Of a stretch of DNA of 37,615 bases, positions 9,121 to 28,316 are shown piece after piece; the first letter of the stretch is position 1; every line of letters begins with the position of its first letter. The stretch is from positions 1 to 37,615 of the forward strand of contig JAGDMS010000006.1 in the NCBI GenBank assembly GCA_017860575.1, in the 5' to 3' direction. Under the pieces are notes generated by a model that was not told the DNA's origin, made no database searches, and worked only from the letters and a program-made list of their open reading frames with translations. The stretch comes from Deltaproteobacteria bacterium (GTDB lineage Bacteria; Desulfobacterota; Binatia; HRBIN30). The translations under genes and the position numbers were made by a program.

Positions 9121-9231
9121 TCTCGGAAAAATTCTACACGTCGTCGCAGTTGCACGGCGCGCAGACCACGGCGACGTTCGCGCTTTTCGCGATTCTGTTT
9201 TATGAATCGTCCTTTAAGCAAAGGAGATCGC

Positions 9232-10707
9232 ATGGCTACCACGAAACGCACTCGCCCGTCCGCCGTCCGGAACGCACGCAACGTCGGCAGGTGGGATCTA
9301 GAGGCGGACGTCGTGGTTGTCGGATATGGTTGTGCCGGCGCCTCTGCCGCGATCGAAGCGGTGGAAGCCGGGGCGGACACACTGATCGTCGAACGGGCCA
9401 GCGGTGGCGGCGGCACCTCAGCAAACGCCGGCGGGCTCCTTTATATGGGCGGCGGAACCCCGGTGCAGCGGGCCTGCGGCTTCGAGGACACGCCGGAGGA
9501 GATGTTCAAGTTTCTGATGGCGGCGTGCGGACCGGATCCCGACGCAGCAAAGATTCGGGTGTATTGCGATGATAGCGTGGCGCATTTTCACTGGCTGGTC
9601 GCGCATGGCGTGCCCTTCAAGAACAGCTTCTATCCGGAGCCGTGGGAGCCGCCCACCGATGACTGTCTAACGTATTCCGGCGGCGAGAATGGCTACCCGT
9701 TCAACCGGATCGCCAAGCCGGCACCGCGGGCGCACAAGCCGCAGTGTGTCGGGTCAGCCGGCGGCCTCCTCATGCAGAAGCTCACGGCAGCCGCGGACGG
9801 CAGCGGCGCACGCATCGAGTGCGACGCACGCTGCGAAGCCTTGGTCGTCGATGATGCGCGCAGGGTTGTTGGTGTCGTCGTCTGGCAAGATCGGACGGAG
9901 CGCCTGGTACGTGCCCGGCGCGGGGTGATCCTGACGGCAGGTGGCTTCGTGAACAATCCCGAGATGGTGCAGCGCCACGTTCCCCTGCTCGCGCGTTGTG
10001 CCGTCAAAACCGGCACTGAAACCGACGATGGCCGCGCCATCCGGATGGCGATGAGTGCGGGCGCCGATGTCATTCGCATGCATGCCGCCGAGGTCGCGTA
10101 CCCGCTCGCCCCCCACCGCCTGATGCGCGGTATTTTGGTCAACCGCTACGGCCAGCGCTTCATCAACGAGGACACCTACTTCGGCCGGTTGGCACAGGAG
10201 GGCCTGTTCCGCCAGGATGGCGAGATGTTCCTCATCGTCGACACGGCCATCTACGAGCCAACCGCCTTCGGCATGCAAGCCGCCTTTGTGGAGGAGAGCA
10301 TGGCTGCACTCGAACGCGCCATCGGTCTCCCGACGGAATCGCTACAAGCCGCAGTGGCATACTACAATCGTTTTGCGGCACGCGGGGAAGATCCGCTGTT
10401 TCACAAGACCGCAACGTTGCTGCAGCCACTGTCGACGCCACCCTATGCCGCGTTCGACTGCCGCTTGAGCACGCAAGACGTCTCGGTCAATGCCACGTTC
10501 AGCGGCTTCACGCTCGGCGGCCTGCATACCCTGCCGACCGGTGAGGTACTGGACCCCGACGGCCAAATCATTCCCGGTCTCTATGCCGCCGGTCGCACCA
10601 CGTCCGGGGTAGCCGCGGGCGGTTACTGTAGCGGCCTCTCGCTTGGGGATGGCACCTTCTTTGGCCGCAAGGCCGGCCGTAGCGCCGCGATGGCGCCCGC
10701 GGTCTGA
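9232..10707 (+). CDS. FAD-dependent dehydrogenase, fumarate reductase / 3-ketosteroid dehydrogenase type
   Basis: 491 aa; ATG 9232 has a strong AAAGGAG six nt upstream, so the track start at 9202 is rejected. An N-terminal Rossmann motif DVVVVGYGCAGASAAIEA (GxGxxG at residues 31-36) is followed by the Ser/Asn-rich FAD loop GGGGTSANAGGLLYMGGG. The C-terminal GLYAAGRTTSGVAAGGYCSG is the second FAD-contacting segment of the fumarate-reductase flavoprotein family. No signal peptide or heme-binding CXXCH is present, so it is a soluble cytoplasmic flavoenzyme. The family contains 3-oxosteroid 1-dehydrogenases and related alpha,beta-desaturases; which substrate is used here cannot be read from sequence. 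It stands alone on the plus strand, convergent with the phosphotransferase gene. Confidence 0.85.
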   Translation: MATTKRTRPSAVRNARNVGRWDLEADVVVVGYGCAGASAAIEAVEAGADTLIVERASGGGGTSANAGGLLYMGGGTPVQRACGFEDTPEEMFKFLMAACGPDPDAAKIRVYCDDSVAHFHWLVAHGVPFKNSFYPEPWEPPTDDCLTYSGGENGYPFNRIAKPAPRAHKPQCVGSAGGLLMQKLTAAADGSGARIECDARCEALVVDDARRVVGVVVWQDRTERLVRARRGVILTAGGFVNNPEMVQRHVPLLARCAVKTGTETDDGRAIRMAMSAGADVIRMHAAEVAYPLAPHRLMRGILVNRYGQRFINEDTYFGRLAQEGLFRQDGEMFLIVDTAIYEPTAFGMQAAFVEESMAALERAIGLPTESLQAAVAYYNRFAARGEDPLFHKTATLLQPLSTPPYAAFDCRLSTQDVSVNATFSGFTLGGLHTLPTGEVLDPDGQIIPGLYAAGRTTSGVAAGGYCSGLSLGDGTFFGRKAGRSAAMAPAV

Positions 10708-10743: not shown

Positions 10744-10762
10744 CCGCCGCTCAGCGCGGCGG
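10744..10762. terminator. Hairpin between convergent genes
   Basis: CCGCCGC (10744-10750) pairs with GCGGCGG (10756-10762) over a 5-nt loop. It sits between the flavoenzyme stop (10707) and includes the last codons of the convergent phosphotransferase gene. There is no T tract, so termination would be weak or Rho-assisted. Confidence 0.3.
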
Positions 10763-11875
10763 ATCGGTCCAGCGGTACGGGATCTCGAGAATATCGGCGA
10801 GCAACTGCGTCGCGACGTTGTTGATCGACATGTTCATCTCAGGCGGCACTCGGCCGGATGCGGTGAGACGTTCGCCGAGGGGGATGAACACGGTCGTGTA
10901 CCGCAGCGCCGCGAACGCCTCGAAGTAGGTCATCTTCCTCAAATGACGGCCCGTCAGTGCGTTGTAGTACGCAACCTGTTCCTCGCGTGTCGGCAATCCC
11001 TCCGGGCGTGGAATGCCATAGCCCTCGTGGGCGGCGCGGTCTTGCGACAGCCACCAACCGACATCGACCTCCGGAGGCGCCAACGCAACCGCCTCCCAGT
11101 CGGTGACGGCTGCGCACGTATAGTCGGCAAAAATCATGTTGCCGATACGCGCATCACCCCAACTGATGACGAGGTCGCTTTCCACCGGGAAATTGTCTTC
11201 CAGCCAATCAAAAGCACGCTCGAGGATTGCATGCGTGCGGCCATGCAGTTCACGCCGCGCATAGTCGCGGTAGAGCTCCAGTTGCCACCTGAGGCCAGGG
11301 GTTCTCCCCTCCGGCACCAGCCACGCAAGTTCCGCCGCCTTCCAATCGATGCGGTGAATCCGCGCCAGCGCCTCGAGCCCGCTCTCCACCAACCGGCGCC
11401 GCTGCGCCGGTGTCGCCTCTTCAACCAGAAAGCCCGACTGGCTGTAGGGCGGCACGTCGGACGGCACCCGGCCATCCACGTATTCCATGACGAAGAACGG
11501 CCGTCCGAGCACGCTCGAGCGGTGTTCATATCCGATCAACGGGGCGATCGGTACGGTGCTGTGCTGCGCAACCGCCGCCATGGCCCGATACTGAATCTCC
11601 ACCGAAGGCAAGCGCTCCGCCGTTTGCGGCGGGAATATCGGCGGGCTCATCGGCTCGATGCGCATGACGTAGCGCCCCTCGCGCCGTCGCCCTGCCTCCC
11701 GCCACGCCGCACGAAAGATGACGGTCTCATTGGAAAATCCCGTCTCCTTTGGCGTGATCAGATCGTGGATATCTACCCCCTGAGCCCCAGGCCAACGGGC
11801 TTCCAGCCAGCCGGCAAGGAGCCGCGGGAGCTCATCGTGAGCCAGCACTGTACCGACACTGTCTGCTTGATCCAT
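10751..11875 (-). CDS. Phosphotransferase family protein (APH/ACAD10-like)
   Basis: 374 aa with ATG 11875 preceded by AGGTGA. The protein has the APH kinase fold: an N-lobe with TGFSNETVIFRAAW as nucleotide loop, the hinge region PFFVMEYVDGRVPSD (about 126-140), and the catalytic segment VISWGDARIGNMIF with D241 and N246, followed by VTDWE (D259) as the metal-binding Asp. The usual HGD of aminoglycoside kinases is WGD here, as I recall for the ACAD10/11-related subfamily associated with acyl-CoA metabolism. It probably phosphorylates a small hydroxylated metabolite, perhaps a hydroxyacyl compound; antibiotic resistance is not implied. It is divergent from the GspE-like gene and convergent with the flavoenzyme. 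Confidence 0.85.
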   Translation of the reverse strand: MDQADSVGTVLAHDELPRLLAGWLEARWPGAQGVDIHDLITPKETGFSNETVIFRAAWREAGRRREGRYVMRIEPMSPPIFPPQTAERLPSVEIQYRAMAAVAQHSTVPIAPLIGYEHRSSVLGRPFFVMEYVDGRVPSDVPPYSQSGFLVEEATPAQRRRLVESGLEALARIHRIDWKAAELAWLVPEGRTPGLRWQLELYRDYARRELHGRTHAILERAFDWLEDNFPVESDLVISWGDARIGNMIFADYTCAAVTDWEAVALAPPEVDVGWWLSQDRAAHEGYGIPRPEGLPTREEQVAYYNALTGRHLRKMTYFEAFAALRYTTVFIPLGERLTASGRVPPEMNMSINNVATQLLADILEIPYRWTDPPR

Positions 11876-12047
11876 CCGGTGTCACCTAACCTTTCCAGAG
11901 CGATCGCTTGCCCGAACAGACGAGAACGCACCAGCGCAACCGTACGAAAATGTCAGCCACTTATCACGCAGGGCGTATTGCTTGCTAATGCCGCGCGTCG
12001 TTGCAGGTGGCATGCGAGTTGCTGCCCTCCAGCGGTCGGGGGGATTG

Positions 12048-14498
12048 ATGGCCGACACAAACGGCGATCTAGCGTTGCTGCGATTCTTGGCGCGGACCGG
12101 CGTGCTCACCAATGATCTGGCGCAGGTTGCCGAAGCGCAGCTCCCAAATCTCGCGAACGGCAGAAACCTGATCGACGTCCTCCGCGACAAGGGCGTGCTG
12201 CAGGAGGACGATTTAGCCAAGACGCTCGCCAGCAAGCTGCAGCTGCCGTTTGTCGACTTGCCGACCGTGGCGTTGGACTCGACCATCGGCGCCTTGCTCA
12301 AGGAGGAGTTGGCCATGCACTACAAGGCCGTCCCCACAGGTGTCGACGGCCCAACGTTGACCATTACGATGGCGAATCCGCTCGACCACGCGGCCATTCG
12401 CGCCATCGAATTCGCCACGGGCAAGCGCGTGCAAATCGGCGTCGCGGCACAAACGGCGGTACGTGATGCTATCGATCATCTCTACCATCTGGAGGAAGCG
12501 CTCGACACCTACCTGAAGGGGATTCCCGGGGACGGCGACGCCCCGATCGCCGAACTGCGGGAGGGCTCCGCAGCGGACATCCGGGGGCTGGAGCGCGACT
12601 GCCCCGTTGCCCCCGTGGTCAAGCTGTTCAATTCGATTCTGCGCGAGGCCTTGCGCACCGGCGCCAGCGATATCCACATCGAGGCGACCAGCACGGGGCT
12701 TCGCGTCCGCAACCGCGTCGACGGACTGCTGGAGGAGTTTTTGCGGCTGCCGAAGTGGGTGCAAGACCCTCTCATCGCACGATGCAAGGTGCTCGCCAAA
12801 CTCGACATCACCGAGCGCCGCGTCCCGCAGGATGGCCGTATCAAAATTCGCTACGGCGACTCCGTCGTGGATCTGCGGGTGTCGAGTCTTCCGACACAGT
12901 ACGGTGAGAAGGTCACGATGCGGGTGCTCGACTCCGGCACAGCGCCCGCCAACCTGGAAAAGTTCAGTTTTGCCGAGCGTGAACTCGGCTGGATTCGCCA
13001 CGCCATCAAACGGCCTGAGGGACTCGTTCTGGTCACCGGCCCGACCGGCAGCGGTAAGACCACCACGCTCTACGGCATGATCGCTGAGGTGGTCGCGCCT
13101 GAGCGCAACGTCGTCACCATCGAGAATCCGATCGAGTACCAGATGGAGGGCGTCAATCAGGTCGAGATCAACGATAGGCAGGGACTCACGTTCGCCAGCA
13201 CCCTACGTTCGATCCTCCGGCAGGATCCGGATGTCATTCTAGTGGGGGAGATCCGGGACACAGAGACCGCGGAAATCGCGCTGCGGGCGGCGCACACCGG
13301 GCATCTGGTGCTCAGCACGCTGCACACCAATGACGCGGTGGCCACGATCACACGGCTGCTCGATCTGGGAATCGAACCGTACCTGTTGGCCTCGGCGCTG
13401 AATCTGGTCATTGCGCAACGCCTGGTGCGGCGGGTGTGCGCACACTGCGCCGCACCCGACGAACCGGATGTCGCCGCGCTGCGTCGACTGGAGATCCACG
13501 ACGGCAACCATCAGTTTCGCCGCGGCCGCGGCTGCAAGCAGTGCCGTGGTTCAGGCTATGCCGGTCGGATCGGCATTTTCGAGGTGATCCCGATTACCGC
13601 TCGCATGGGTCGATTGATCGAGAAACGTGCCCTGGAAAGCGCGATGCGCGCGCAGGCGCGGGCCGATGGTACTGTCTTCCTGTCCACCCACGCCGCGCAC
13701 AGGGTGTGCGCCGGTATGACCACCGCGGACGAAGCCCTCCGCATTGTGGATGTCGGTAACCAGCAGCCTCGTTGCCCGTCATGCAACCACTCGGTCGAGG
13801 ATACGTTCGCCGTCTGCCCCCATTGTGCGACCGTCCTGCGCCGGAACTGCGGGAACTGCGGCGTGCAGCTCGATGAGGAGTGGCGGATCTGCCCGCACTG
13901 TGCCACGCCGGTGCGGCAACGGATATCCGCCCCCGCGCCGGTCCAGGAACCCAAGGCTCCCGCACCCGGACCCCCGGCCACACTCCAACCTCTCCCCGCG
14001 CTCGGCCCCGTCGTCACCCCGTCGACCACGGCGCGTCAGTTCCGCGCTCTGGTCGTTGACGATCACGCCGACATGCGCCGCTTGATTTCCCTGGCACTGG
14101 AGCGCAGCGGGCTTCCGATCCTGGTCAGCACCGCTGAAAATGGGATTCAGGCGCTCGAGCAAGCCGGCCACGATCCACCCGACCTCGTACTACTCGACCT
14201 CATGATGCCGGGCATGGATGGCTTCGAGGTCTGCCAACAATTGCGCGGAAATGTCCGCACCGCCTTCGTGCCCATCTTGATGCTCACGGCGCGCAATGAT
14301 GCGGCCAGCCGAGCCCGCGGCTTCCTCGTCGGCACCGACGACTATGTCAGCAAGCCGTTCGCGCGCGCCGAGTTGGTCGCACGGGTCCGCCGGCTGATCG
14401 AGCGAACGTACGGAACGGTCCTGACCACAGGATCCGACGTCGTGCCCACAGCGGCTGACGACACCGTCACACGCCCGCTCGGCGTCTCACTGCAGTAG
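12048..14498 (+). CDS. GspE/PilB-type secretion ATPase fused to zinc ribbons and a response-regulator receiver
   Basis: 816 aa from ATG 12048 (GGGGGG upstream); the track start at 11982 adds 22 unsupported residues. Order: MshEN-like N-terminal domain (about 1-140, with NLIDVLRDKGVLQEDDLAKT); GspE ATPase with Walker A GPTGSGKTTT (about 331), Asp box and Walker B (DPDVILVGEIRD, about 393), His box LSTLHTND; the CM-type tetracysteine region (CAHC...CKQC); then a double zinc ribbon (CPSC...CPHC...CGNC...CPHC, about 576-620); a Pro-rich linker; and a full CheY-like receiver with DD near residue 670, phospho-acceptor D at about 717 (VLLDLMMPGMDGFE) and K in YVSKPF. The first part drives pilus or type II secretion assembly at the inner membrane. 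The attached receiver suggests direct control by phosphorylation. Such a fusion is unusual in my knowledge. Confidence 0.9.
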   Translation: MADTNGDLALLRFLARTGVLTNDLAQVAEAQLPNLANGRNLIDVLRDKGVLQEDDLAKTLASKLQLPFVDLPTVALDSTIGALLKEELAMHYKAVPTGVDGPTLTITMANPLDHAAIRAIEFATGKRVQIGVAAQTAVRDAIDHLYHLEEALDTYLKGIPGDGDAPIAELREGSAADIRGLERDCPVAPVVKLFNSILREALRTGASDIHIEATSTGLRVRNRVDGLLEEFLRLPKWVQDPLIARCKVLAKLDITERRVPQDGRIKIRYGDSVVDLRVSSLPTQYGEKVTMRVLDSGTAPANLEKFSFAERELGWIRHAIKRPEGLVLVTGPTGSGKTTTLYGMIAEVVAPERNVVTIENPIEYQMEGVNQVEINDRQGLTFASTLRSILRQDPDVILVGEIRDTETAEIALRAAHTGHLVLSTLHTNDAVATITRLLDLGIEPYLLASALNLVIAQRLVRRVCAHCAAPDEPDVAALRRLEIHDGNHQFRRGRGCKQCRGSGYAGRIGIFEVIPITARMGRLIEKRALESAMRAQARADGTVFLSTHAAHRVCAGMTTADEALRIVDVGNQQPRCPSCNHSVEDTFAVCPHCATVLRRNCGNCGVQLDEEWRICPHCATPVRQRISAPAPVQEPKAPAPGPPATLQPLPALGPVVTPSTTARQFRALVVDDHADMRRLISLALERSGLPILVSTAENGIQALEQAGHDPPDLVLLDLMMPGMDGFEVCQQLRGNVRTAFVPILMLTARNDAASRARGFLVGTDDYVSKPFARAELVARVRRLIERTYGTVLTTGSDVVPTAADDTVTRPLGVSLQ

Positions 14499-23498: not shown

Positions 23499-24422
23499 TC
23501 AGGGCGTCCAATAGAGCAACAGCGCCGCGGTCACGATCCACAGCAACACGTCGAGAAGCAGCGGCTGGTCGGACAGCAGCAGTTGGGTCGGATTGCCGCC
23601 CTCTTCGCGCTGATGCACCAGGTAGAGGTAGCGGAAGATCCCGAAGAGCACGAAGGGGATGGTGAGGTAGAGTTTGTCCGTTCCGAGCTTCTCGCGAACT
23701 TCGGGCGAGACGGTATAGATGGCATAAGCCACCACCGTCGACGCGGTCACCACGGCAATCATCTGGTCGAGGAAATACGGGCTGTATTCCTTGAGGCTTG
23801 CACGATGGTCGATGGCGCGGGCTTCGAGCAAGATCAGCTCATGGCGCCGCTTGGAGAAACCGAGAAACAGCGCCAGCAGGAACGTGCAGATGATGAGCCA
23901 AGGCGATACCGGCACGGCGATGATGACGCCGCCGGCCACGGCACGAATGACGAAGCCGGAGGCGATGGCCATCACGTCGAGGATGACGACCTCTTTCAAC
24001 CAGAAGGTGTACGCCAGTTGCAGGAGGAAATAGAGGCCAGCAAGCACACCGAACCACCGGCTGAGCAGGGCCGTTCCCGCGAGCCCGACCACCACAAGAC
24101 CAACAGCCATCGCCACTGCGGTCCCGCGCCGCACACGTCCGGACGGGAGCGGGCGTAACGATTTCAGGGGATGCTCACGGTCGCGGTCGCAATCCCACAG
24201 ATCGTTCATCACATACGTGCCGCTTGCGAGCGCACAGAACGCAACGAATCCCAGCGACACCACCACGACGGCGTCGAGATTGAAGAGATGCTTGGAGAAC
24301 ATCAGCGCCGCGAACAACACGGCGTTCTTACTCCACTGTGTCGGCCGCAATAGGGACACCACGTCCCGCAACGACGAGGGTCGTTCTTGCATCCTTGCGA
24401 TCTGGGGCACCCCCGTCTTCAC
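23499..24422 (-). CDS. UbiA-family decaprenyl-phosphate phosphoribosyltransferase-like protein
   Basis: 307 aa; the GTG at 24422 has GGAGGT six nt upstream, whereas the internal ATG at 24392 has none. About nine transmembrane helices. The first Asp-rich motif is NDLWDCDRDREHPLKSLRPL (residues 73-92) and the second region is LKEYSPYFLDQMIAVVT, both typical of 5-phosphoribosyl-1-pyrophosphate:polyprenyl-phosphate transferases such as Rv3806c and unlike ubiquinone or heme prenyltransferases. It would make a polyprenyl-phosphoribose used for arabinan-type sugars at the membrane. It follows the unknown 24440-24976 gene by 17 bp, so they form a small operon. The DprE1/DprE2 epimerase genes that complete the arabinose pathway are not in the window. 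Confidence 0.87.
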   Translation of the reverse strand: MKTGVPQIARMQERPSSLRDVVSLLRPTQWSKNAVLFAALMFSKHLFNLDAVVVVSLGFVAFCALASGTYVMNDLWDCDRDREHPLKSLRPLPSGRVRRGTAVAMAVGLVVVGLAGTALLSRWFGVLAGLYFLLQLAYTFWLKEVVILDVMAIASGFVIRAVAGGVIIAVPVSPWLIICTFLLALFLGFSKRRHELILLEARAIDHRASLKEYSPYFLDQMIAVVTASTVVAYAIYTVSPEVREKLGTDKLYLTIPFVLFGIFRYLYLVHQREEGGNPTQLLLSDQPLLLDVLLWIVTAALLLYWTP

Positions 24423-25346: not shown

Positions 25347-28316
25347 ATGAGTGACGGGAGCAAACGGCAGGACGACCGATTCTCTTCGCGCACCAATGCC
25401 GGTTTCGCGAATGGGGAACGTTTCCTCAATGGGGCGCTGACACGAAGGGGCTTTCTGCAGGCCACGGCCAGCACGCTGGCACTGACACTCCTGAATCTCC
25501 ACCGCGGCGAGAGCCAGAGTCCGGGCCAGCCAGATACACCGCAGAGCCTCAACTCACCCGGTAATATCGAGTACCGTGGTGTCGAGGATATTTACCGCAA
25601 GAAGTGGACCTGGGACCGTGTGGTGAGAGGGACCCATCACTCCAACTGCGGGTACCAGCGCTGCGCCTGGAACGTGTATGTCAAGGATGACATCGTCTGG
25701 CGCGAAGAGCAGGTCGCGCACTACCCGCAGACCAACCCCGATCTGCCGGATTTCAATCCGCGCGGGTGCCAGAAAGGGGTCTGCTACAGCGACCGCATGT
25801 ACGATCAAGCCCGTCTGAAGGTGCCGTTGAAACGGGCTGGCGCGCGCGGTGAGGGCAAGTGGACGCGGATCAGCTGGGACCAGGCGCTCACCGAGATCGC
25901 CGACAAGTTCATTGACGCGATGATCTCGAAGGAGCATGGACCCGGCTCGATCTACTGGGACCTGGGCTCGTCATCGAGCAATGGGTGTCATGCCCTGGGC
26001 CTGACGCGTAGCGGCTATCTGCTCGACACCCCGCTCCTCGAGGACACCACCGAGATGGGTGACCATGCCCCCGGTGTCGCTGTCACAACCGGGAAGGTGC
26101 TGTTCACCAGTTCGATGGATGATCTGCTCTACAGTGACCTGATCCTGATCTGGGGCGGCAATCCGATCTACACCCACATTCCCAACGCCCACTTCATTTA
26201 CGAGGCCCGTTACAAGGGGGCCTACCTCGTCACCATCGCGCCGGACTACAGCCCTTCCGCGTTCCATGCCGACGAGTGGGTGCCGGTCAATATCGGTACG
26301 GATGCCGCTCTGGCCCTGTCGATGGCGCAGGTCATGGTCGAGGAGAAGCTGTACAAGCCGGACTTCATCGCGGAACAGACCGACATGCCGTTCCTGGTCC
26401 GCCTCGATACCGAACGCTTGCTGCGCGGGAGCGATATGTCCTCCGGGGGTGCGGACGATGACTTCTATATGTTCGATACCGTGCAGAAGAAGATCGTCCC
26501 GGCGCCCAAGCGCAGTCTGCAGCTGGATGGCGTCAAACCCGCGCTGGAGGGCATCTTCGACGTCAAGACACGTAATGGGTCAGTGAAAGTCACCACGGTG
26601 TTCGAGCGTCTCAAGCGGCAACTCCAGCAGTACGCACCGGAACAGACCGAAAAGATCACGGGCGTGGCAGCCTCCGTCGTGCGCAACTTGGCCCGGCGCA
26701 TCGCGAAGGCGCGGGCGTGCGCCAACATCACGCAGACCAACTTCGGCAAGTTCTACAATGGCCTGGAGGCGGAACGGAGCATCCTGCTGGTCTTTGCGTT
26801 GGCTGGCCAGTTCGGCAGGCACGGTGCGGGCTACTCGGCGGTTCCGATGCTGTCCGTCTCCGGTGCCGAGCCGCTGAACCTGGCCAGCGGCAAGTACGCC
26901 CCCAAGATCGGTATCGGCATGCTGGCGGCGCAGAACGCGCTCGAGATGCTCAAGATGAAGATGGCGGGGTATACCAACGAGATGATGGTGTACGAGCTTG
27001 CGCGCCAGGATTATGCGCGTGGGAACGTGATCCCCCCCACCTTGCTTTACTATCAGCACTGCGGCCTCAAGGAACTGTACGGCAGTGCCAAGCGCTGGGA
27101 TCCGAGCCTCAAACGCGAGTTTGATGAGTACCTCCAGGAGGCGGTGAAGAAGGGCTGGCAGTTTGTTCCGCAAAAAGCGCCACGCATCTTTTTCTCTGTC
27201 GGGGGCAACACCTTCCGCCGCGTACGCGGCTACCACAAGCTGCTCGAACACATGCTGCCCCAATTGGATCTTCTGGTCACGCTCGATTGGCGCATGAGCA
27301 ACACCGCCCGCTACAGCGACTATGTCCTGCCGGCGGCGGGCTATTACGAGCGGAACGACATCGCGTGGAGCACCGCGCTTGCGCCCTTCAGCCACCCGAC
27401 CGTTGAGGCGGTGAAACCGGTGGGCGACTCGAAGAGCGATTGGGTGTTCCACTGTCTGTTGCTGAAGACGATTCAGGAGCGGGCCAAAGCGCGCGGCATC
27501 ACGACGTATGCCGATCGCCACGGTGAGCAGCGGCGTTTGGACGAATGTTACGATGACTTCACGTTCCAGGGTCGCTTCACCGAGGACAACCCGGAGGATC
27601 TGCTGCAGGAGATCCTGGCGCTATCCGACAATTTGAATGGCAAGAGCTGGAAGGAATTGAAGGAAAAAGGCTTCGAGCGCTTTACCGGTGTGGGCATGGG
27701 GGTGACGCACATCGGCAACGCTGCGGATATCGATCCGCACGAGCCGATCGTGGCCAATAGCTGGTATGTCCAGAAGAAGATGCCCTGGCCGACGCTGACG
27801 CGGCGCATGCAGTTCTACATCGACCACCCCTTCTACCAGGAGCTGGGGGAGGTGCTGCCGGTGCACAAGCCTCTTCCGGCCATCGGCGGTGACTACCCGC
27901 TGCAGTTGACGAGCGGGCACAACCGCTGGTCGATCCACGCGGCGTGGCGTGACAACAAGAAACTGCTGGGATTGCAGCGCGGGCAGCCGGCCATGTTCAT
28001 GAGCAGCGACGATGCCAAAAGACGCGGCATTGCCGATGGCGACATGGTGCGCCTGCATAACGATATCGGTGACTGCATGATTCAAGCCCAGGTATCACCG
28101 GCGGTGAAACCGGGCCAGGTCATCATCTACCACGCGTGGGAACCGTTTCAGTTCAAGGACGGGCGTTCGGATCAGGTGCTGACGCCCAGTCCGTTGAACC
28201 CGATACAGCTGGCAGGCGGGTATTTCCACCTGCAGGGCCGGATCATGATTGGAACGCCGGGCGGCACCGATAGGGGAACGAGAGTGGAGGTGGAGAAAGC
28301 CCAGGCGGTCGCCTGA
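25347..28316 (+). CDS. Type II DMSO-reductase-family molybdopterin oxidoreductase, catalytic subunit
   Basis: 989 aa from ATG 25347 (AAGGA upstream); the track's earlier start is rejected. A Tat signal, TRRGFLQATASTLALTLL, predicts export of the folded enzyme. The FeS (FS0) motif is H97-X3-C101-X4-C106-X34-C141; NarG-type enzymes, as I recall, have CX3C between the first two cysteines, so the spacing is one residue longer. Typical family blocks follow: NPRGCQKGVCYSDRMYDQAR, PLKRAGARGEGKWTRISWDQ, a candidate Mo-ligand Asp (D239 in EMGDHAPG), LILIWGGNPIYTHIPNAHF, and the C-terminal MopB-binding TSGHNRWSIHAAWRDN. The group includes ethylbenzene, dimethylsulfide and steroid C25 dehydrogenases, selenate and (per)chlorate reductases and Nar. 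The beta, gamma and delta partners are not adjacent, so the substrate is open. Confidence 0.88.
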   Translation: MSDGSKRQDDRFSSRTNAGFANGERFLNGALTRRGFLQATASTLALTLLNLHRGESQSPGQPDTPQSLNSPGNIEYRGVEDIYRKKWTWDRVVRGTHHSNCGYQRCAWNVYVKDDIVWREEQVAHYPQTNPDLPDFNPRGCQKGVCYSDRMYDQARLKVPLKRAGARGEGKWTRISWDQALTEIADKFIDAMISKEHGPGSIYWDLGSSSSNGCHALGLTRSGYLLDTPLLEDTTEMGDHAPGVAVTTGKVLFTSSMDDLLYSDLILIWGGNPIYTHIPNAHFIYEARYKGAYLVTIAPDYSPSAFHADEWVPVNIGTDAALALSMAQVMVEEKLYKPDFIAEQTDMPFLVRLDTERLLRGSDMSSGGADDDFYMFDTVQKKIVPAPKRSLQLDGVKPALEGIFDVKTRNGSVKVTTVFERLKRQLQQYAPEQTEKITGVAASVVRNLARRIAKARACANITQTNFGKFYNGLEAERSILLVFALAGQFGRHGAGYSAVPMLSVSGAEPLNLASGKYAPKIGIGMLAAQNALEMLKMKMAGYTNEMMVYELARQDYARGNVIPPTLLYYQHCGLKELYGSAKRWDPSLKREFDEYLQEAVKKGWQFVPQKAPRIFFSVGGNTFRRVRGYHKLLEHMLPQLDLLVTLDWRMSNTARYSDYVLPAAGYYERNDIAWSTALAPFSHPTVEAVKPVGDSKSDWVFHCLLLKTIQERAKARGITTYADRHGEQRRLDECYDDFTFQGRFTEDNPEDLLQEILALSDNLNGKSWKELKEKGFERFTGVGMGVTHIGNAADIDPHEPIVANSWYVQKKMPWPTLTRRMQFYIDHPFYQELGEVLPVHKPLPAIGGDYPLQLTSGHNRWSIHAAWRDNKKLLGLQRGQPAMFMSSDDAKRRGIADGDMVRLHNDIGDCMIQAQVSPAVKPGQVIIYHAWEPFQFKDGRSDQVLTPSPLNPIQLAGGYFHLQGRIMIGTPGGTDRGTRVEVEKAQAVA

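Follow-up and report, generated by a model that had tools for sequence, protein, structure and literature searches.

The gene at positions 25347–28316 of the window, by which we mean the whole 37,615-nucleotide stretch of DNA analysed here (contig C565 of its assembly), encodes an ethylbenzene dehydrogenase-like (EbDH-like) catalytic (alpha) subunit of the type II (Asp-ligated) DMSO reductase family. The best reading of its genomic setting is that this and related alphas can replace one another as the catalytic subunit on a single common hub for electron exit, a gamma-beta-delta gene set located on another contig (C247). That the window alpha itself is an EbDH/S25DH-like, water-dependent C-H hydroxylase subunit, which resides in the periplasm and shares the C247 set, we consider likely. 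Hydroxylating an unactivated C-H bond without O2 is difficult chemistry, and only a small number of enzymes that do so have been characterised.

The catalytic subunit and its FS0 site

The features of the gene are as follows (positions in the window).

25347..28316, + strand: alpha catalytic subunit of an EbDH-like type II DMSO-reductase-family molybdoenzyme, 989 aa (sequence search, alignment, tree, structure model)
25440..25457, + strand: Tat export motif T-R-R-G-F-L, residues 32-37 (sequence; same position in paralogs, consensus TRRxFL)
25635..25769, + strand: FS0 [4Fe-4S] ligand region H97, C101, C106, C141, HX3CX4CX34C (alignment and motif counts)
26061..26063, + strand: Asp239, counterpart of the EbdA Mo ligand Asp223 (alignment)
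26748..26750, + strand: Lys468, counterpart of EbdA Lys450, family-invariant (alignment)

The reading frame is free of internal stops, and a plausible ribosome-binding site (GAGGAAAGG) precedes its ATG; together with the Tat motif, this bears out the preliminary description of a complete, Tat-targeted catalytic subunit. When the protein was used to search PDB sequences, EbdA scored best (670 bits), followed by PcrA (463) and NarG (247). An AlphaFold2 model built from 32 relatives (pLDDT 86, pTM 0.87) likewise found its best fold match in EbdA (2ivf_A; target-normalised TM 0.93, 2.4 Å, E 9.7e-90). The family model TIGR03479 matched full length (span 1-913, 939 bits, E 2.7e-282), below the curated cut-off of 984.75. 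The top-scoring paralog (984.2) also stays just below that value. The shortfall is a narrow miss of a naming cut-off and does not concern a structural feature. Against NF042978, the model for ethylbenzene dehydrogenase proper, the window alpha reached 714 bits and thus fell short of the 2000-bit equivalog cut-off. In an alignment of 32 sequences, the four FS0 ligands as well as Asp239 and Lys468 are invariant, while EbdA His192 is replaced by Ser in the window alpha and EbdA Asp485 is not conserved.

The FS0 motif had been described as one residue longer than that of NarG, and the ligands are indeed as claimed, NarG in the PDB reading CTGSC (CX3C). The further proposal that CX4C marks a separate subgroup did not hold, as the clade is otherwise CX5C and CX4C recurs elsewhere. 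Among the 32 aligned relatives, nine have X3 at the second FS0 gap, eight have X4, 14 have X5 and one has X6. EbdA has CX5C (CWPQGSC) and so do all close paralogs of the window alpha (mostly CWYQRGC), a comparison that was missing from the earlier observation. Within the window clade, CGYQRC is confined to the window alpha and its 74% ortholog (L140, genome G021); CX4C is also found in unrelated CYPGGC alphas of Myxococcota and Chloroflexota. Because the ortholog comes from another family of the order and has the short gap too, the spacing is real, and an assembly or sequencing error is ruled out. The CX4C of the window alpha is thus the loss of a single residue, limited to its own twig and independent of the CYPGGC alphas.

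Paralogs and phylogeny of the alphas

The window genome is a 5.8 Mb MAG in 601 contigs (93.8% complete, 6.1% contaminated), and a genome-wide search revealed at least 12 EbdA-like alphas in it. Eight are of the window kind, namely the window alpha and seven paralogs at about 55-59% identity to it (two on C597, one each on C587, C492, C41 and C134, and C190/C297, the last resembling two halves of one gene). Four further alphas, on C257, C280, C215 and C234, show identities near 40%. In a 65-row alpha tree the window clade comprised 19 rows (support 100) alongside a second alpha set and a third clade, which holds EbdA and alphas with a beta next door. The EbdA-containing clade is the sister group of the window clade (fork SH-aLRT 99), with PcrA and ClrA outside both; since the SH-aLRT values come from a short search and ClrA sits on a long branch, the deep order is provisional. 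The tree thus places the window alpha in the hydroxylase (EbdA-like) lineage of type II enzymes, within a separate clade that has good support and consists mostly of orphan alphas; CX4C is no marker of this clade.

PcrA and ClrA resemble the window alpha in the type II alpha fold and the FS0 site, and differ from it in the CX3C of PcrA, in their position in the tree and in an ordinary clrABDC-type operon. The window enzyme might instead be a terminal reductase or another non-hydroxylase of the family (selenate, chlorate or DMS type), given that SerA, ClrA, PcrA, NarG and DdhA share its cofactors and that sequence alone leaves the direction of the reaction unfixed (PMC10100899). However, PcrA and ClrA do not join the clade of EbdA and the window alpha, a dozen or more divergent paralogs are easier to explain by a range of organic substrates than by a single oxyanion, and several sister alphas adjoin dehydrogenases, CoA-ligases or CoA-transferases. 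A reductase therefore seems to us quite unlikely, and a hydroxylase remains the preferred reading.

With regard to the host, an rpoB tree, in which the rows of G018 and G009 (wrong frame) were disregarded, joined the window genome with a Candidatus Binatota genome (that of locus L062) and bin Glo_18 (support 88/99). No 16S was found in the window genome and a comparison of IleRS did not decide its placement; it probably belongs to Candidatus Binatota. The largest alpha set met was that of G021 (same order, 5.9 Mb), with 23 EbdA-like alphas versus five EbDH-type betas.

The gamma-beta-delta hub and its proposed pairing with the alphas

The preliminary description was right to see the partners of the gene as a puzzle. 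Its term orphan applies locally, as genome-wide searches for type II beta, gamma and chaperone families placed none on the window contig, and does not apply functionally, given the set on C247. This contig carries the single EbDH-type beta of the genome (531 bits to TIGR03478) together with its single matching gamma and single matching delta chaperone, in the order gamma-beta-delta, unlinked to the window alpha and without any other alpha. The beta (four FeS clusters), gamma (heme b) and delta match the ebdB, ebdC and ebdD models. Partners elsewhere in an operon had been named as an outcome that would speak against a separate subgroup; this outcome is largely borne out, although the operon is unusual in lacking an alpha. 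The suggestion of an electron acceptor peculiar to the window alpha found no support, as this module is conserved in relatives: the alpha-less gamma-beta-delta operon is kept in G012, G014 and G018 (beta identity 90, 88 and 82%, respectively), and hub-type betas form a clade of their own in the beta tree (100/99). Several near-identical hubs may have collapsed, or betas may be missing, in an assembly as fragmented and incomplete as that of the window genome. Against a collapse, the same alpha-less operon is present in G018, where the layout is no assembly artefact because the assembly consists of only six contigs.

C477 and C153 were rejected as the partner set, the beta being just 47% identical over part of its length and belonging to a distant type II system. 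C477 (L083) holds the beta, gamma and chaperone of this second molybdoenzyme set, and C153 (L095, 14049-15623) a truncated alpha at the contig end; the two perhaps represent one split operon.

Most window-clade alphas have no beta nearby. In G013, however, a window-clade alpha is immediately preceded by a beta that shares 71% identity with the hub type and is accompanied by a gamma, and in a Halioglobus bin (L060) only 4 bp separate another such alpha from the beta upstream of it; the two betas are placed close to the hub clade. Of 15 genomes of the order, six have both alphas and EbDH-type betas and the other nine have neither, and the alpha:beta counts in the six are roughly 12:1, 12:3, 9:5, 6-8:3, 4:2 and 23:5. 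From gene content and sequence, we infer that the window alpha pairs with the C247 beta. The exception is G021, a genome with many window-clade alphas, the 74% ortholog among them, whose five EbDH-type betas each lie on an alpha-carrying contig, none being of the stand-alone type; the absence of a recognisable hub there weakens the shared-hub pairing. No conserved gene neighbourhood was found around this ortholog.

An alpha that works alone or with a private acceptor, as a separate subgroup, would agree with the lack of a partner in the 37.6 kb window, of a linked beta near the orthologs L140 and L058, and of a stand-alone module in G021. Yet all FS0 ligands are kept, which would be pointless without an electron-transfer partner; moreover, two clade members adjoin betas, and S25DH was active only when alpha, beta, gamma and SdhD were together (PMC6016249). 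We regard a self-sufficient alpha as very improbable, and retain the shared hub.

The genes around the hub suggest where the electrons leave. Upstream of the gamma-beta-delta module are genes for a cytochrome b561-family protein and a TetR protein. Further upstream, G012 and G014 have a cytochrome c with eight CxxCH motifs (octaheme) and petD-like and petB-like genes, as well as a Rieske gene that is Pfam-confirmed in G012 and a look-alike by appearance in G014. The hub contig of the window genome ends inside a gene resembling the same cytochrome c in position and sequence, so that complete copies of the octaheme cytochrome and bc genes come from the relatives only. The gene runs of L179 (489-9057) and L180 (2997-10561), in which gamma-beta-delta follows cytochrome b561, TetR, octaheme cytochrome c, petD, petB and Rieske-type genes, are a possible respiratory electron-exit island. 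For EbDH and S25DH, the electron exit is only presumed to be a cytochrome c, and the cytochrome b561/bc-type cluster provides a testable candidate. The wider scheme is a plug-in respiratory hydroxylase system of this Binatota-like order, in which a conserved gamma-beta-delta hub, co-encoded with cytochrome b561, octaheme cytochrome c and a bc-type complex, would serve at least a dozen scattered, interchangeable Mo alphas, each with its own C-H substrate; we put it forward tentatively, as a serious possibility that stops somewhat short of likely. In addition, C79 (L096) and C93 (L097) carry two NarG-size alphas (1,211-1,270 aa) with adjoining NarH-type genes. The organism may thus respire nitrate, which would be in keeping with anaerobic hydroxylation.

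Proposed reaction, related systems and possible substrates

In the mechanism we propose, the window alpha (Mo-bisMGD) would be folded and loaded by the unlinked delta chaperone, exported by Tat to the periplasm and assembled with the beta and gamma from the C247 operon, a set that would also serve the remaining orphan alphas of this genome. As homology suggests, Mo(VI)=O would take hydrogen, the OH would rebind to give an alcohol, and water would reload the Mo. Electrons would pass one at a time from Mo via FS0 and FS1-4 to heme b, the hydroxylation cycle and relay following published accounts (PMC6153880, PMC8840923), and from there probably to a cytochrome c or bc-type complex, as the gene order in two relatives suggests. 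The substrate may be a lipophilic alkyl, terpenoid or steroid-like molecule.

EbdABCD of Aromatoleum aromaticum (PDB 2IVF) is similar in the fold of its alpha (38% identity), in the His-Cys3 ligation of FS0, in the Mo-ligand Asp, Lys450 and the Tat signal, and in the models matched by the hub subunits. It differs in that EbdA has CX5C and His192 where the window alpha has CX4C and Ser, and in that its partners share one ebdABCD operon whereas the window alpha is unlinked and would draw on a common gamma-beta-delta set. The steroid C25 dehydrogenases S25DH1-4 and S26DH1-3 of Sterolibacterium denitrificans, likened here by description, also have more alphas than beta-gamma sets, shared subunits, a separate chaperone and an active site without His. 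The eight S25DH alphas of Sterolibacterium share fewer beta-gamma sets, and S25DH1 and others have been reconstituted with a common beta3-gamma3 plus SdhD (PMC6016249); according to a review, S25DH lacks the active-site His (PMC6153880). In contrast to 8 alphas versus about 6 beta-gamma sets in that organism, the window genome has at least 12 versus 1; its host is Binatota-like, and its hub is linked to cytochrome b561 and, in relatives, to bc-type genes. The shared-hub arrangement is best read as an extreme version of the known S25DH shared-partner principle, the diverse EbDH-like alpha set in an uncultured lineage being new. An order with up to 23 alphas per genome and few beta sets represents a large reservoir of candidate regioselective hydroxylases. 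If the hub is single and conserved, one expression platform with gamma-beta-delta could screen many alphas, and testing them would therefore be practical.

The preliminary description had suggested hydrocarbon or steroid hydroxylation. The flavoenzyme and wax-ester neighbours that it invoked are weak evidence: no tie between the wax-ester synthase and the alpha genes was established, and the two genes below are only loosely linked to the alphas.

10751..11875, - strand: APH-family kinase, 374 aa, 62.5% identical to a kinase two genes from the alpha on C280; possible pathway gene
9202..10707, + strand: FAD_binding_2 oxidoreductase (PRK07121 type)

These two genes are 13-15 kb away from the window alpha. 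The FAD enzyme has 53-55% homologs less than 10 kb from alphas in L058 and L062, and the recurrence of kinase and FAD enzyme near other alphas hints at a common pathway. On this basis, the window alpha could be a steroid side-chain hydroxylase (S25DH/S26DH ortholog) of a sterol pathway, with the kinase corresponding to 25-hydroxysteroid kinase (25-HSK), a phosphotransferase of about 40 kDa, and with ring A as the target of the FAD enzyme. The missing active-site His and the many alphas with few beta-gamma sets, both as in S. denitrificans, fit such a role. However, neither APH kinases nor FAD_binding_2 enzymes are rare, 13 kb separate the kinase from the alpha, and the best family of the FAD enzyme is generic FAD-binding, with scores far below the 3-ketosteroid dehydrogenase cut-offs. 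The neighbours of sister alphas also vary. On C41 (L090, 1-5495), the alpha is directly followed by two HGD-D proteins (benzoyl-CoA reductase/2-hydroxyacyl-CoA dehydratase family, a 2-hydroxyglutaryl-CoA-dehydratase-like pair), a layout that suggests an anaerobic aromatic or acyl-CoA pathway. C134 has a short-chain dehydrogenase, a sulfotransferase and a luciferase-like flavoenzyme, C492 type III CoA transferases, C280 an AMP-ligase and the APH kinase, and C257 luciferase-like flavoenzymes. Named S25DH references were also sought among plasmids, where only ClrA, haloarchaeal and nitrate-reductase-type enzymes turned up. A dedicated sterol enzyme appears unlikely; steroid or hydrocarbon hydroxylation in the broader sense is plausible for the window alpha.

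Two other genes of the window deserve mention. One (11982-14495, + strand) encodes a PilB/GspE-type secretion ATPase (MshEN and T2SSE) joined, in an unusual fusion, to zinc-ribbon and response-regulator receiver domains. The other (23502-24422, - strand) encodes a UbiA-family enzyme that scores above the cut-off for decaprenyl-phosphate phosphoribosyltransferase, an enzyme best known from arabinan-making actinobacteria and found here in a Binatota-like genome.
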